Assembly: GCA_947459825.1 (NCBI GenBank)
Contig: CANHFH010000001.1
Coordinates: forward strand, 1-64,000
Direction of reading: 5' to 3'
DNA length: 64,000 nt
Origin: Pseudomonadota bacterium
GTDB taxonomy: Bacteria; Pseudomonadota; Gammaproteobacteria; Steroidobacterales; Steroidobacteraceae
Position 1 is the stretch's first letter. Each line of letters begins with the position of its first letter. The notes beneath the pieces were generated by a model that did no database searches, had not been told where the DNA came from, and saw nothing but the letters and a program-made list of their open reading frames with translations. This document shows, piece after piece, positions 1 through 5,804 of this stretch. The translations under genes were made by a program, and so were the position numbers.

Positions 1-2082
1 GCGGAGTGCGGGCTGGCGTGTCTGGCCATGGTCGCCGGCTTCCACGGCTACGAGACGGACCTCGCGACGCTCCGCCGCCAGTTCGCAATCTCGCTCAAGG
101 GTGCGACGCTCAAGAGCCTGATCGACACCGCGAGCCGCATGGGGATGGGCAGCCGCGCGCTGCGCTGCGAGGTCGAGGAACTCAAAGACCTGCGAGCGCC
201 CGCGATCCTGCACTGGGGCATGGCGCACTTCGTGGTGCTCAAGCGCATCGCCCGCGGCGGCATCGAGATCCACGACCCCGCGCTCGGCGCCCGGTTCGTG
301 AAAGCCGAGGAGGTCTCGCGCCATTTCACCGGTGTCGCACTCGAGGTGTCGCCCGCGACCGGCTTCCAGAAGAAGCGCGAGAAGAACCTCCTCAAGCTCT
401 CGACGCTCGCCAAATTGTCCCCTGAGACCGTCCGGGGGCTGATCCAAGCAGTGGTGCTCTCGCTCGTCATCGAGATCTGCGTGCTTGCCGCCCCGTTCTA
501 CATGCAGTTCGTGATCGACGAGGCGATCCTGAAGGGCGACGCCGGGTTCCTGACCGCCATCGCCGCAGGCTTCGCCATGGTGACGCTCTTCAGCGTCGCA
601 GCGACGGCGCTCCGCGGGCTCACGCTCCAGTTCGTGTCCTCGGCGCTGTCCTTCGATATGGAGGCCAAGGTCTTCCATCACATCTTGCGCCTGCCGCTCG
701 ACTGGTTCCACAAGCGGCAGGTGGGCGACATCCAGAGCCGCTTCCATTCCATCGAGAGCGTCAAGCAGTTCATCGCCAACGGTGCGGTGTCGGTGTTCAT
801 GGACGGGGTGCTCTCGATCTTCATCGTCGCGCTGATGTTCTACTACTCGCAGACCTTGGGCTGGGTCGCGGTCACGGCGGTCATCCTCTACGCCGCCATC
901 CGCCTCGGCATGATCGAGCTCTCGCGCCGGGTGGCCGGGGACTTCATCGTCAACGAGGCCAAGGAGTCGACCCGGTTCCTGGAGTCGCTGCGGGCGGTGC
1001 AGACCATCAAGGCGGGTGGGTCTGAGGCCGCCAGAGAAGGCCTGCAGCGCAATGCCATCGCTGCGACCTTGAACTCCGGCATCCGGGCGGGCAACGTCAA
1101 CATCGGCTTCGGGGCGCTGAACCAGGCCATCAACGGCCTGACCGATATCCTGATCGTGTTCCTGGGGGCCAAGGCCGTCATGAGCGCCGATCTCACGGTC
1201 GGCATGCTCACCGCGTTCATCGCCTACCAGCGGCAGTTCACCGGCCGCTGCGCGAACCTCGTCGAGAACTTCATCGCGTGGCGGCTGCTCGATGTGCACC
1301 TTGAGCGCCTCGCCGACATCGCGCTCGCCCCCAAGGACGAGGTCGCCCTCGTCGGCGGCCACGAGGCCGAGGTGCAGGGCGAGATCGTCCTGCACAACCT
1401 GACCTACCGCTATGCACCCTCCGAACCTGAAGTGCTGCGCGGGGTCACGCTGCAGATCGCGCCGGGGGAGTTCGTGGCGCTCTCGGGCACTTCGGGATGC
1501 GGTAAATCCACGCTCATCAAGATCGTCGCCGGGCTCTACAAGCCGAGCTACGGCAATGTCTACATCGACGGCCAGCCGCTCTCGCGCTGGAACGCGCAGA
1601 GCCTGCGCAGCCAGATCGCCCTCGTCGCCCAGGATGACAGTCTCCTGCAGGGCACGCTCGCCGAGAACATCTCGGGGTTCGACGAACAGATCGACATGGC
1701 GCGGGTGCGCGAGTGCGCCGCGCTCGCCCAGATCAAATCCGACATCGAACGCATGCCGATGGGCTACGAGAGCCTGGTCGGGGACATGGGTTCGACCCTC
1801 TCCGGTGGCCAGAAGCAGCGGGTGCTGCTCGCGCGGGCGCTCTATCGCCGGCCCCGGATCCTGATCCTCGACGAGGGCACCTCGCACCTCGACGTGGAGA
1901 CCGAGAAGGCGGTCAACGCCGCCCTCTCGAACCTCGCCATCACCCGTCTCGTCGTCGCCCACCGCCCGGAGACCCTCCGGGCGGCGGGGAGGGTCGTGTC
2001 CCTCGAAGGCGGCGTGGCGAGGGAGGTTCACTCATCAATCCAAGAGCAACAGGAGAGGAAAAATGCGAACGCTGAAGTCTGA
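1..2082 (+). CDS. C39-peptidase ABC exporter (bacteriocin/microcin type), 5' partial
   Basis: Inner-membrane exporter that trims double-glycine leaders and pumps the cargo out. The frame is open from base 1, so the first residues are outside the window; an internal ATG at 28 is not the true start because the catalytic cysteine lies before it. Visible residues: ECGLAC at 2-7 (Cys3 is the C39 nucleophile), His76 in MAHFVVL and Asp92 in HDPALG complete the triad. A membrane domain follows (about 150-430), then an ATPase domain with Walker A GTSGCGKST, signature LSGGQKQR and Walker B LILDEG followed by SHLD, as in colicin V/lactococcin exporters. The 3' end overlaps the next gene by 20 nt, which carries a matching leader. 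A membrane-fusion partner (HlyD/CvaA type) is expected but not seen; it may lie upstream. Confidence 0.93.
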   Translation, partial: AECGLACLAMVAGFHGYETDLATLRRQFAISLKGATLKSLIDTASRMGMGSRALRCEVEELKDLRAPAILHWGMAHFVVLKRIARGGIEIHDPALGARFVKAEEVSRHFTGVALEVSPATGFQKKREKNLLKLSTLAKLSPETVRGLIQAVVLSLVIEICVLAAPFYMQFVIDEAILKGDAGFLTAIAAGFAMVTLFSVAATALRGLTLQFVSSALSFDMEAKVFHHILRLPLDWFHKRQVGDIQSRFHSIESVKQFIANGAVSVFMDGVLSIFIVALMFYYSQTLGWVAVTAVILYAAIRLGMIELSRRVAGDFIVNEAKESTRFLESLRAVQTIKAGGSEAAREGLQRNAIAATLNSGIRAGNVNIGFGALNQAINGLTDILIVFLGAKAVMSADLTVGMLTAFIAYQRQFTGRCANLVENFIAWRLLDVHLERLADIALAPKDEVALVGGHEAEVQGEIVLHNLTYRYAPSEPEVLRGVTLQIAPGEFVALSGTSGCGKSTLIKIVAGLYKPSYGNVYIDGQPLSRWNAQSLRSQIALVAQDDSLLQGTLAENISGFDEQIDMARVRECAALAQIKSDIERMPMGYESLVGDMGSTLSGGQKQRVLLARALYRRPRILILDEGTSHLDVETEKAVNAALSNLAITRLVVAHRPETLRAAGRVVSLEGGVAREVHSSIQEQQERKNANAEV

Positions 2083-2779
2083 TGAATTGAAGGCGGTGTC
2101 CGGTGCGAGATATCGAGATGGTGGCGGCTTACGGTTCTTCGGCGAGTGGCGTTTCGGCGAACCGTCCGGCTCGAACTACTGGGACGGAATGGAAATGTGG
2201 GGTCCGGAGGGGGCGTTTACCGATATCAATGGGGGGGAGCCTCTAGATACAGACGACCCCAACAACTACCGCTCGCTTGATGTGAAGGGACCGGCCGATT
2301 TCGACAATGGAATGATCACCATGAAGATAGTGGAGCGGTCGGATGAGCTACAGAGCATGTGGATGTTCCGCGATATGCATGGCCTTCCACATAAAGAGGG
2401 CTTCTCGTTCGTGTATTTCGATCCTACTACCAAACAAATAAAGTCCACTGAAGTTAAGTACGCCGGTGATGATGAAACAATCCCGGTGAGCATGTATTTC
2501 GATGTTTTCAATTCCTTGCCCAAGGGCGCCAAAATTCTTGCGCAGATACACTCACATCCAACTGGCGTGAAGGGACTGTCAACTATTGACTACAATAACT
2601 ACAAGGACATGCTGAACGGGGGCGATTACCACAGTCGCGAGATGCCAAACGGGGTGACATTCGATCCGAACATGCTCTATTACATCCAGGCCAAGGTTGA
2701 TGGAAACCCCAAGGTATGGGATAAGCGCGTTATAAGCGATCCCAGCCACAAGGGTGGGCAGGTCTCACGGCCGCGGTAA
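2063..2779 (+). CDS. JAMM/MPN-like metallopeptidase with a microcin-type GA leader
   Basis: 238 residues. Residues 1-15 (MRTLKSDELKAVSGA) resemble class II microcin leaders: microcin V has MRTL..EL..VSGG, and microcins H47 and E492 end in GA. Cleavage after Ala15 by the C39 exporter encoded just upstream is therefore likely. The body holds a full JAMM signature, H163-x-H165-x7-S173-x2-D176, with Glu112 (in HKEGFSF) as the probable upstream catalytic acid. That layout is that of Zn2+ peptidases of the JAB/MPN fold; the DUF4329 group seen in toxin proteins is the closest relative I can suggest. Residues 16-100 are Gly/Asp/Trp-rich and unrecognised. A good Shine-Dalgarno AGGAG lies 7 nt before the ATG. 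Base composition is much more AT-rich than the chromosome around it. Export and peptidase activity are inferred; the target is unknown. Confidence 0.85.
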   Translation: MRTLKSDELKAVSGARYRDGGGLRFFGEWRFGEPSGSNYWDGMEMWGPEGAFTDINGGEPLDTDDPNNYRSLDVKGPADFDNGMITMKIVERSDELQSMWMFRDMHGLPHKEGFSFVYFDPTTKQIKSTEVKYAGDDETIPVSMYFDVFNSLPKGAKILAQIHSHPTGVKGLSTIDYNNYKDMLNGGDYHSREMPNGVTFDPNMLYYIQAKVDGNPKVWDKRVISDPSHKGGQVSRPR

Positions 2780-2814
2780 CAGGTCATTCGTCGTAAAGGC
2801 AGATAGGAGGAGAA

Positions 2815-3846
2815 ATGAGCTATCGGCCAGCGGCGTGCGGACTCTTAGTGCTGATTGCGGGTGAGATAACGCCGTTGCGTCTCCTCGCAGCGGAGTCGAG
2901 CGCAATCAAGCACGGGTCGGACAGCGCGGTGATTCGGCGAACCATCGGGCACGGCGACGAACTCGTGACCAGCCATGGTCCCTCTGCAGTCGGACTCATG
3001 ATTCCTTGTGACGGAGTTGTCGCCGGTGTCGATTGGCTACCTGGACTGGTCGACAAAACGATAAGTGCCTCTGTGCGATCTCGAGTCAAGCTCACCGTGG
3101 ATGGCAATGAGATCGTGACCCCGCCCGGAGTCGTTTCGACCGAAATCGTCGCCATCGACGATAAGGGCGTGACGCGTGGAGGCAGTTGTCATCTGATCGG
3201 GCCCGGAACCGACATGGAAGTCGGTCTCTGGGTCGATCTTCCCGTGACTTTGCGGGACGACACGAAGTTGCGATACGTCGTATGTGTAAGAGCCTCTCGA
3301 GACGGCGCTGTCCGATCCTTCAGTGAAGACTTGCACGATGGAGCGAATAAAACCGAATGTGCGGCTAAGCGTTGGTTGCCGAGACAGTCCGTGATCGCGC
3401 TCATTCAGGATGGCGATGCAGGTCCGAAGTCCGGGCTGTGGGCCATCAAGGAGCGCATTCAGTTTCTCAGACAGCGGGAACGGCCGGAGAATGTGCTCCA
3501 CACAATGAGTTTCGCATGGTCGGTACCGTTGCCCTATCGATGCGAGGGTGTGGATGGCGCGCAGTTGCAGATTATGAAAAACGATGCTCTGCCGATCTTT
3601 CCGGACGGGCTTCAAGTGCAGGCCAGATCCCCCAGCGGTCGGTATGCTGTTGAGTTGAAGGTCGATATGCAGGGTCGGCCACTCACGCTGCTTACAAGCG
3701 TCTATGGTGACATCCAAGCGGGGTTCGTTGTGCAGACGACATCAATTCCATCGCTTCGATTTAGTCCGTTGCCGACCTCTGGATTTGAGTGGCGCGGAGT
3801 CCGCGAGTACGCGCGTGTCGGCGATTGCCCTCCAATCGTGCGCTGA
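2815..3846 (+). CDS. exported protein of unknown function
   Basis: 343 residues; not recognised. The N-terminus (arginine at 4, hydrophobic stretch about 7-25, then LLAAES) looks like a Sec signal peptide cleaved near residue 26, so the product probably works in the periplasm or outside. The rest looks beta-rich, with about half a dozen cysteines that could form disulfides, and shows no catalytic motif I know. A strong Shine-Dalgarno (TAGGAGG, 4 nt before ATG) fixes the start. It sits 35 nt after the JAMM gene and 31 nt before the ATP-grasp gene in the same orientation, so it is probably part of the same operon. Possible roles are immunity or chaperone for the JAMM protein, or a second effector; nothing in the sequence decides. 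Confidence 0.75.
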   Translation: MSYRPAACGLLVLIAGEITPLRLLAAESSAIKHGSDSAVIRRTIGHGDELVTSHGPSAVGLMIPCDGVVAGVDWLPGLVDKTISASVRSRVKLTVDGNEIVTPPGVVSTEIVAIDDKGVTRGGSCHLIGPGTDMEVGLWVDLPVTLRDDTKLRYVVCVRASRDGAVRSFSEDLHDGANKTECAAKRWLPRQSVIALIQDGDAGPKSGLWAIKERIQFLRQRERPENVLHTMSFAWSVPLPYRCEGVDGAQLQIMKNDALPIFPDGLQVQARSPSGRYAVELKVDMQGRPLTLLTSVYGDIQAGFVVQTTSIPSLRFSPLPTSGFEWRGVREYARVGDCPPIVR

Positions 3847-3877
3847 TCGTGTCGGCCTGAGTGAAGTAGCGTCGTCC

Positions 3878-4720
3878 ATGTCGAAGAGGCGGTTGGTCGA
3901 GATCTGCTACGGCAAGCACGATGTCAACCTTTTGGCTCTGGCACAGGAGGTTTCGGCTGCTAGGGCTGATGTCAGGGTGACCCATCTGCGGGAGATCGGA
4001 AGCAGCGCGTACGTGATCGACCGTGGAGCCGTTCCAGCCGATTGCGCGATGGTCCTTCATCCCTCCGCGGGCGGCACGACGTGGCGTTCGGCGATGACCC
4101 ATATGACGACCGGTCGGCTTCTAAATCGCACTGCGTTGAGCTACCCGGATGTCGGTGACAAACTGTGGCAGCAGAAGCAAGTGGCGGCAGCCGAGTCGAG
4201 GCTAGCGATCGAGACTAGACGGATTGCGGAGGTGTCTGCTGCGGAGGTCGATTTTCCCGTTATCGTCAAACCGGCTCGGGGTACCTGCGGAGAGGGCGTT
4301 CGGATTGTAGTCGATTCCGCGGGGTTGGCGGACCAGCAGGGCGACCAATTGGTGGTGCAACCGTACGTCCGTAATCACGGTGACTGGCGTGTGGTCGTCA
4401 TCGGAGGGCGAGCGGTCAGCGCCATCAGGCGGCATGCTCGACCGGGAGTGGTCACCAACAACATCGCTACGGGTGGTTTCGCGTATGCGGAGCGGGATGG
4501 CGAGATATTGGGCAGGGTGTTCGGCGTCGCAGAGCAAGTGGCATCGATCCTGAAGTTCGACTATGTCGGGATCGATGTCATACAGGATCTTGACGACGGT
4601 TCGCTTCTTTTCCTTGAGGCGAACGAGTTTCCGACCTTCGAAACCAGTCAGATCCTCACTGGTGTGAACATCGCCTCGGTGCTCGTCGGGCATTTGCTTG
4701 ACGGTGATCTGTTCGAATAG
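3878..4720 (+). CDS. ATP-grasp ligase, RimK-like
   Basis: 280 residues from the ATG at 3878. The frame is open further upstream (to 3704), but that would overlap the preceding gene by 143 nt and adds no family sequence. ATP-grasp features: FPVIVKPARGTCGEGV (nucleotide-binding Lys and Gly-rich loop, about 126-141), the acidic patch VQPYV, DWRVVVIGGRAV, and the Mg2+-binding end LLFLEANEFPTF. The family joins a carboxylate to an amine or thiol through an acyl phosphate; RimK-like members add amino acids to proteins and graspetide ligases crosslink RiPP precursors. In this cassette it could modify the JAMM protein, make a small protective peptide, or act on a host protein. Last gene of the low-GC cassette; no clear Shine-Dalgarno. 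Confidence 0.8.
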   Translation: MSKRRLVEICYGKHDVNLLALAQEVSAARADVRVTHLREIGSSAYVIDRGAVPADCAMVLHPSAGGTTWRSAMTHMTTGRLLNRTALSYPDVGDKLWQQKQVAAAESRLAIETRRIAEVSAAEVDFPVIVKPARGTCGEGVRIVVDSAGLADQQGDQLVVQPYVRNHGDWRVVVIGGRAVSAIRRHARPGVVTNNIATGGFAYAERDGEILGRVFGVAEQVASILKFDYVGIDVIQDLDDGSLLFLEANEFPTFETSQILTGVNIASVLVGHLLDGDLFE

Positions 4721-4967
4721 ATCGGCGCCCCCAGATTCTGTGGTCTTGCCGAGCTGCAAAGAACGGTCGCCGAGAACATCAAACGGTCTCCGGACAAGTT
4801 CGTCTACTTGTCCCTGCCTCCGGAGTATGCAGAGTGTGCGGCGCTGCATGATTGTGCCCCGAAGGAGTTGGAAGAACGCCCTAGGTCTCGACCGCCTGGA
4901 CTGACATCGGTCCGTTTCCGAACTGCTCAAAACCAGAGTTCGGGGCCTCAGGGGCGGTTCCGTCGTC
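4721..4967. other. spacer with a possible coding remnant
   Basis: 247 bp between the convergent ATP-grasp and zapD genes. It keeps the low-GC character of the cassette. In the same frame as the ATP-grasp gene, directly after its TAG, the reading continues without a stop for more than 60 codons with protein-like content (for example FVYLSLPPEYAECAALHD around 4790-4850), the only internal ATG being at 4808. This could be a decayed C-terminal extension or the remnant of a further gene. No promoter or T-tailed terminator was seen. Confidence 0.25.
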
Positions 4968-5804
4968 TCAACCGCAGCAGATCATCTCGAAAGGGATGTC
5001 CTGCTGCGCCTGGCGCGGACGCTCCTCGGCGCCCTGCCACACGACGAAGCGCACGCTCGAGCGGTAGTGGCTGCCGCTGATCTCAGGATAGATGCCGAGC
5101 TCCGCTGGGACGACCACGCGCAGCAGCTGCACGGGGTTCTCGCGCTCGAAGGTGATGTGGAACACGCCCTGCACGGCGATCTCGCGGCGGGACTTCCCGC
5201 CCTGTCGCGTCAGCCACAGCAGTTCGGCGATGGCGTCGCAGAGCGGGCGCAGCATGGCGAGCCATTTGTTGAGCGCGCTCTCGCGCAGTTCGGGCGGTTG
5301 GCTCAACCAGAAATAGAAATCCGGCAGATCGAACTCGCAGCTGCCGCCGGGGATGGTGCTGCGATGGCGTACCGCTGCGAGGAACGCTGAGTCGCGCAGC
5401 GGCGCGAGATAGGCCGACCCCGCGCCCAGCAGGTCGTTGCGCAGCCGTTGCAGGTTGGCGACGAGACCCTGCACGCGGTCGGCGTCGACACCCGGTCGGC
5501 GCAGCCACTCGTTCATCACCAGCGATTGACGCTCGAGCTCCTTGAGGACATCGGCGCGGGCATCGGTGCGGGTGATGATGGAGAGGATGTCGAGTATGCT
5601 CGTCACCGCGGCCCGGCTGCCCCACTGGCTGCGCGAGTTGGCGTGGAACACGGCCTGGTTGTACAGGAAGTCGATGCGCAGGAAGGCGCGCATCCGCTCA
5701 TTGAGCGGCTGCTCGAACACGAGCGGCTCGCCTCCCGCCGCGGGCGCCGCGATGCTCGCGGGCGCGGCGAGGTCGTCCGCTGGTCCTGCGGTGTCCCCGT
5801 TCAT
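4968..5804 (-). CDS. zapD: cell division protein ZapD
   Basis: 278 residues, starting at the ATG at 5804, 4 nt after the coaE stop; a longer frame to 5882 would run into coaE. ZapD binds the C-terminal tail of FtsZ and bundles protofilaments in the Z-ring. Recognised by the family pattern FEQPLNERMRAFLRIDFL near residue 33, the helical middle, and the beta-rich end (LPDFYFWL, GVFHITFERENPVQLLRV, SVRFVVWQG). The order pilD-coaE-zapD is standard for gammaproteobacteria. The yacG zinc protein that often follows is missing here, where the foreign-looking cassette begins instead. Confidence 0.93.
   Translation of the reverse strand: MNGDTAGPADDLAAPASIAAPAAGGEPLVFEQPLNERMRAFLRIDFLYNQAVFHANSRSQWGSRAAVTSILDILSIITRTDARADVLKELERQSLVMNEWLRRPGVDADRVQGLVANLQRLRNDLLGAGSAYLAPLRDSAFLAAVRHRSTIPGGSCEFDLPDFYFWLSQPPELRESALNKWLAMLRPLCDAIAELLWLTRQGGKSRREIAVQGVFHITFERENPVQLLRVVVPAELGIYPEISGSHYRSSVRFVVWQGAEERPRQAQQDIPFEMICCG

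Follow-up and report, generated by a model that had tools for sequence, protein, structure and literature searches.

A microcin-type leader on a 238-residue protein with a JAMM motif, encoded beside a C39-peptidase exporter

Class II microcins are made with leaders of 15-18 aa that end in GG or GA and have hydrophobic residues at positions -4, -7 and -12 (PMC11494933). The largest class II microcin known has 90 aa, and a limit set by the cavity size of the exporter has been proposed (PMC10233263); in the MccV system, a 116-aa cargo was exported poorly (PMC10231218). Genome mining for microcins may be confined to short precursors, such as ORFs of 30-150 aa (PMC11494933). In polymorphic toxins, JAB domains were proposed to be toxin modules with an adjacent immunity gene, and the same work proposed that these toxin domains are nucleases, not peptidases (PMC3482391). 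For graspetides, the commonest neighbours of the ATP-grasp gene are C39/ABC exporters (PMC8939145).

The locus described here belongs to an environmental gammaproteobacterium and lies at the start of the window, by which we mean the whole 64,000-nucleotide stretch that was analysed (contig CANHFH010000001.1, assembly GCA_947459825.1). It begins with an exporter gene and the gene of its putative cargo:

1-2082, forward strand: C39-peptidase ABC exporter (PCAT, CvaB-like), truncated at the 5' end by the start of the contig
7-9, 226-228 and 274-276, forward strand: exporter catalytic residues Cys3, His76 and Asp92, from alignment with relatives
Within the exporter, forward strand: ATPase motifs, with Walker A from residue 496, LSGGQ from residue 600 and Walker B from residue 620
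2051-2058, forward strand: ribosome-binding site of the cargo gene, AGGAGAGG, read from the sequence
2063-2779, forward strand: cargo gene (leader and orphan JAMM-motif protein, 238 aa), an ORF call with no homologues
2063-2107, forward strand: double-glycine (GA-type) class II microcin leader, MRTLKSDELKAVSGA, cleavage predicted before Arg16 (2107/2108)

The exporter has the make-up of a PCAT, with the Cys-His-Asp residues of C39 followed by ABC membrane and ATPase domains, its N-terminal residues being off the contig. It matches the Pfam families C39 (2e-31), ABC_membrane (2e-35) and ABC_tran (1e-33), and it aligns with the bacteriocin PCAT structure PDB 4ry2 over nearly its full length (5e-92, residues 2-673). 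Base 1 of the window is also base 1 of the contig; the contig does not contain the first residues of the exporter, among them the oxyanion Gln, or the region 5' of the exporter where any gene for a membrane fusion protein would sit. A preliminary description of this DNA considered the C39 triad complete, and Cys3, His76 and Asp92 do align with those of relatives, with the oxyanion Gln beyond the contig end. A search of the assembly revealed three C39 domains: the one at the contig start, one on C115 and one on C44. Only the exporter beside the cargo retains the catalytic Cys, which is replaced by Ala on C115 and by Ser on C44. Its GC3 of 0.91 indicates native composition. The C44 locus (L005), in which an RTX-repeat protein precedes an HlyB-like exporter with the Ser substitution and an apparent frameshift, is a separate type I secretion locus.

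The cargo gene starts with an ATG behind a good ribosome-binding site, and its 5' end overlaps the exporter stop by 20 nt, so that the cargo does adjoin a C39 exporter gene of its own, as had been stated earlier. Residues 1-15 end in GA and place V12, L9 and L4 at positions -4, -7 and -12, in agreement with the published rules for length, terminal residues and all three hydrophobic positions. We also searched with a degenerate DNA pattern for M-R-x-L-x3-E-L-x2-V-S-G-[GA], using the reversed pattern as a control. Among 148 relatives the pattern matched 11 times, and among 369 class-wide genomes twice, whereas the reversed pattern had no match in either set; a chance origin of the leader is therefore very unlikely. 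On sequence grounds we take the microcin-type leader of the cargo to be real, and both the published rules and the specificity of the pattern bear out the preliminary reading of residues 1-15 as a class II microcin leader.

What follows the leader is much less typical. The other pattern matches that could be read to a stop encode peptides of 65 to 126 aa, so the 238-aa cargo stands out among them. One match (L006) runs off its contig end; the identical leader in L013 heads a peptide of 65 aa. The mature cargo, as computed, has 223 aa, 25.3 kDa, a pI of 5.2 and no Cys; its length is 2.5 times that of the largest class II microcin on record (90 aa; PMC10233263). By size, then, the cargo falls outside the class II microcins. 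The earlier label 'microcin' stands as far as the leader and the adjacent PCAT are concerned and fails on size (223 versus at most 90 aa); for export, the protein probably works like a class II microcin, judging by its sequence.

Several other leader peptides were seen in related genomes. Tandem microcin-like leader peptides of 72-76 aa, mostly Gly-rich, occur near a PCAT exporter in genomes of the same taxonomic order (L053 and L055; G091:C21 and G078:C30). In a genome of the same genus (G017; L046/L011), the leader MRLLKMDELLAVSGA heads a 66-aa peptide consisting largely of Gly and Lys repeats, on a contig shared with a PCAT. A 123-aa Gly-rich protein with a leader-like start, MRLLTESEIAIVVGG, is encoded near a second PCAT (L056, 9846-10217, minus strand; G091:C5).

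The same genome holds a broken copy of the exporter on C96 (L045), 92% identical and with the C39 part absent at the contig edge. Behind it, two short leader peptides are encoded with the kind of overlap seen between the cargo gene and its exporter, which suggests that the JAMM cargo occupies a microcin gene slot. The features of this locus lie at 2-757, 1022-2374, 2440-2830, 2866-3027, 3243-3488 and 3539-3862. An AAA-ATPase-like gene interrupts the exporter copy, part of which is duplicated. The leader peptides are 53 and 81 aa long; after them comes a small membrane protein that could provide immunity. On C115 (L044, 1-2094, minus strand), an HlyD-like remnant precedes a further exporter copy and is fused to it in frame; its C39 domain lacks the catalytic Cys, and the fusion is either a pseudogene or an assembly join. 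As the two C96 peptides behind the broken paralogue would depend on the exporter beside the cargo, the JAMM protein might be imagined to be exported in order to process the strain's own microcin-like peptides rather than to serve as a weapon. However, these peptides have cleavable leaders of their own, and the composition of the cargo cassette, described next, indicates separate acquisition. We consider such a role very improbable.

The cargo gene is the first of three genes with foreign composition:

2040-4950, no strand assigned: low-GC3 cargo cassette, from the GC3 profile and synteny
2815-3846, forward strand: orphan ORF of 343 aa with a strong ribosome-binding site (2805-2812)
3878-4720, forward strand: RimK-like ATP-grasp ligase of 280 aa; the start of a longer frame is at 3704

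The order is JAMM cargo, ORF 2815-3846 and ATP-grasp, with spacers of 35 and 31 nt. GC3 values are 0.64, 0.63 and 0.69, respectively, as opposed to 0.87-0.96 in the flanking genes. In the examined congeners, similarity to the window sets in at the 3' end of zapD (about 4950-5035) and not before; congeners with sequence beyond that point have different genes there. The low GC3 together with the synteny break indicates horizontal acquisition. Close relatives of any cassette gene were absent from the searched genomes of the genus, family and order, and the cassette probably represents a strain-specific acquisition behind an exporter of native composition. The cassette, its foreign composition and the paralogous exporter copies add to the preliminary description. 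A search by consensus found no promoter for the cassette, and the one terminator-like site, located within the last part of the ATP-grasp gene, was rejected as no better than those that shuffles give.

ORF 2815-3846 has no family or structure match and no homologue in 98 genomes, plasmids or viral contigs. It shows a hydrophobic stretch, AACGLLVLIAG, at residues 6-16 by hydropathy, judged by eye as a probable Sec signal peptide; this and its position make it a candidate periplasmic immunity or accessory protein. The ATP-grasp protein matches Pfam RimK (4e-16), TIGR00768 (1.4e-24, below the cut-off of that model) and glutamate ligases in the PDB (1e-7), and has only distant RimK-like matches in relatives.

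For the cargo itself, no homologue was found in 98 relatives, in 369 class-wide genomes or in plasmids, phages and viral contigs, and a search of genome contigs returned close relatives only, with no homologue. One viral-contig match (L002) was discarded as a chance stretch of 25 residues in a phage baseplate-like gene. The cargo locus is thus a single locus in one draft genome. It could be argued that local recombination put a microcin leader in front of a gene that is cytoplasmic or decaying, so that the fused product does not work as an exported cargo. The exporter copies on C115 (HlyD-fused, no catalytic Cys) and C96 (interrupted) do look like pseudogenes, and the cargo both exceeds known PCAT cargoes in size and lacks homologues. 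Nevertheless, its frame is open for 238 codons, with a good ribosome-binding site and a complete catalytic motif, the critical leader residues are all kept, and three open genes follow one another with short spacers. We regard a non-working fusion as quite unlikely.

The catalytic motif resides in the second half of the protein:

2375-2632, forward strand: putative JAB/JAMM core, residues about 105-190, from the motif, profiles and low-confidence models
2396-2398, 2549-2551, 2555-2557, 2579-2581 and 2588-2590, forward strand: JAMM residues E112, H163, H165, S173 and D176

The signature E112...H163-S-H165-P-T-G-V-K-G-L-S173-T-I-D176 contains an exact H-x-H-x7-S-x2-D, with E112 lying 51 residues before H163, and so has the residue order and spacing of JAB/JAMM domains. 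The exact motif and the plausible Glu112 reported in the preliminary description are thereby recovered. Among 1,930 open frames of at least 100 aa, the strict motif occurs only in the cargo, and it arises in about 1e-4 of cargo shuffles. A Pfam scan of the trimmed domain returned only JAB-clan families, all below cut-off: RadC (E-value 0.043; 14.2 bits against a cut-off of 22.1), Prok-JAB (0.063; 13.6 against 25) and Toxin-JAB1 (0.14; 13.1 against 21). Across scans the E-values ranged from 0.04 to 0.17, and none of the JAB profiles matching the cargo reached its family cut-off. An alignment of the cargo with RadC of relatives runs colinearly through 74 columns (30% identity), with E112 falling on the RadC Glu. 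A genuine RadC is encoded separately in the genome, on C9. Full shuffles never attain the score of the RadC profile, whereas shuffles that keep the motif do so in 206 of 10,000 cases with HMMER and 46 of 250 with hhalign (2% and 18%). The JAB assignment therefore derives mainly from the motif.

Structure models were built with single-sequence AF2 for the full-length and trimmed protein (mean pLDDT about 40). In the best region of the full-length model, at this low confidence, the elements run strand, strand, helix, strand, helix; E112 immediately precedes strand 114-120, the two His lie where strand 157-163 ends, and D176 lies where helix 177-185 begins. A strand and helix order has been described for RadC-like domains (PMC11981726), and the element order of the low-confidence model fits it. 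Foldseek searches with both models returned no JAB match; the models are poor and the lists were treated as noise.

These data also bear on the possibility that the leader and exporter are real while the cargo is no JAMM enzyme, its motif being fortuitous or that of an inactive relative, with binding, pore formation or signalling as its function. The sub-threshold E-values, the motif-kept shuffles that equal the RadC score, the low AF2 confidence and the empty fold search all speak for it. On the other hand, the five-residue signature is exact, including the E upstream, and as rare as stated above, a strand precedes HxH in both models and a helix follows D in one, and all Pfam matches are to JAB-clan families. 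We find this possibility unlikely. That the cargo contains a JAB/JAMM domain appears likely to us, mainly from the motif; this grading is a judgement and not a computed value. The term 'metallopeptidase' used earlier is supported as far as the motif goes, but with profiles below threshold and JAB toxins proposed to be nucleases, a zinc peptidase is no more than one option.

Taken together, the explanation we favour, tentatively and with somewhat less than even confidence, is an acquired three-gene cargo cassette behind a PCAT, coding for a secreted JAB/JAMM effector, an immunity or accessory protein and an ATP-grasp ligase. The PCAT would recognise the leader as one of its family, and the C39 domain would cut after Ala15. 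The exporter, a membrane fusion protein and TolC, the latter two encoded elsewhere, would then thread the 223-residue Cys-free chain out of the cell, where it may fold into a divergent JAB/JAMM hydrolase with a metal held by H163, H165 and D176 and with E112 as the general base. The hydrolase could attack a competitor, either outside or in the neighbouring cell, in the manner of a bacteriocin but by enzymatic means. The product of ORF 2815-3846 would confer immunity to it or assist it as an accessory protein, and the ATP-grasp ligase might modify the cargo or protect the target in the producer. The leader, the exporter domains with their triad, the motif, the order of the genes, their foreign composition and their absence from congeners are observed; cleavage, export, fold, metal binding, toxicity, immunity, the ATP-grasp role and the type of bond attacked (peptide or phosphodiester) are what we infer. 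Export is the main doubt, given microcins of 60-90 aa and the drop in the MccV system at 116 aa. The stronger proposition, that a PCAT exports an entire metallohydrolase of 25 kDa, which acts between bacteria as an effector and has an immunity gene of its own, and that such cassettes are exchangeable behind one exporter, seems doubtful to us. Overall, what the preliminary description observed is confirmed, and its interpretation is partly supported.

Such a protein offers a natural substrate on which the proposed cavity limit of the exporter (PMC10233263) could be examined, a microcin leader on a 25-kDa enzyme-like protein. If it is truly secreted, a machine thought to be limited to small peptides carries an enzyme-sized load. 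Should both export and activity hold, genome mining restricted to short precursors would overlook cargoes that are enzymes, and a further way of delivering JAB toxins would be known; if the effector reading is true, the class II microcin route includes enzymatic bacteriocins.

Among known systems, graspetide loci with C39 exporters share with this locus an ATP-grasp gene beside a leader protein and a C39 exporter. Since these are the typical neighbours (PMC8939145), the ATP-grasp protein might add residues to the cargo or cross-link it before C39 export. Unlike in graspetide loci, however, the ligase is of RimK/LysX type, with no graspetide maturase model among its best 25 NCBIfam matches, and the cargo greatly exceeds a graspetide precursor in length, with no repeated core motif discernible by eye, which makes a graspetide-like locus improbable.

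The Tox-JAB-1 and Tox-JAB-2 (DUF4329) domains are likewise JAB domains proposed to be secreted toxins beside an immunity gene (PMC3482391). They ride on RHS, T6SS, T7SS or TcdB-type carriers, whereas the cargo is a protein of 238 aa with a microcin leader alone and no RHS, filamentous or secretion-system carrier domain at its N-terminus. Its Toxin-JAB1 match is sub-threshold (0.14), and DUF4329 does not match it. The DUF4329 members examined mostly have YHTHGG or YHTHAG and a longer spacer than the cargo, and none of those surveyed has a microcin leader, judged by eye. With the RadC clade (JAB/JAMM, MPN+) the cargo shares the E...HxHx7Sx2D signature and its spacing (HNHPSG...PS..D in RadC); it differs in having HSHPTG instead of HNHPSG, in its 85 N-terminal residues, in its secretion leader and in its sub-threshold scores.

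From class II microcins (60-90 aa when mature, below 10 kDa and usually 12-26% Gly), the cargo departs with its 223 aa and 25 kDa, a Gly content of 11.2%, marginally below that range, an enzyme-like motif and neighbours unlike known microcin immunity genes. What it has in common with those of the MccV/CvaAB type are the leader rules, the GA end and a directly adjacent PCAT gene, in a gene order that is also that of the paralogous C96 locus.
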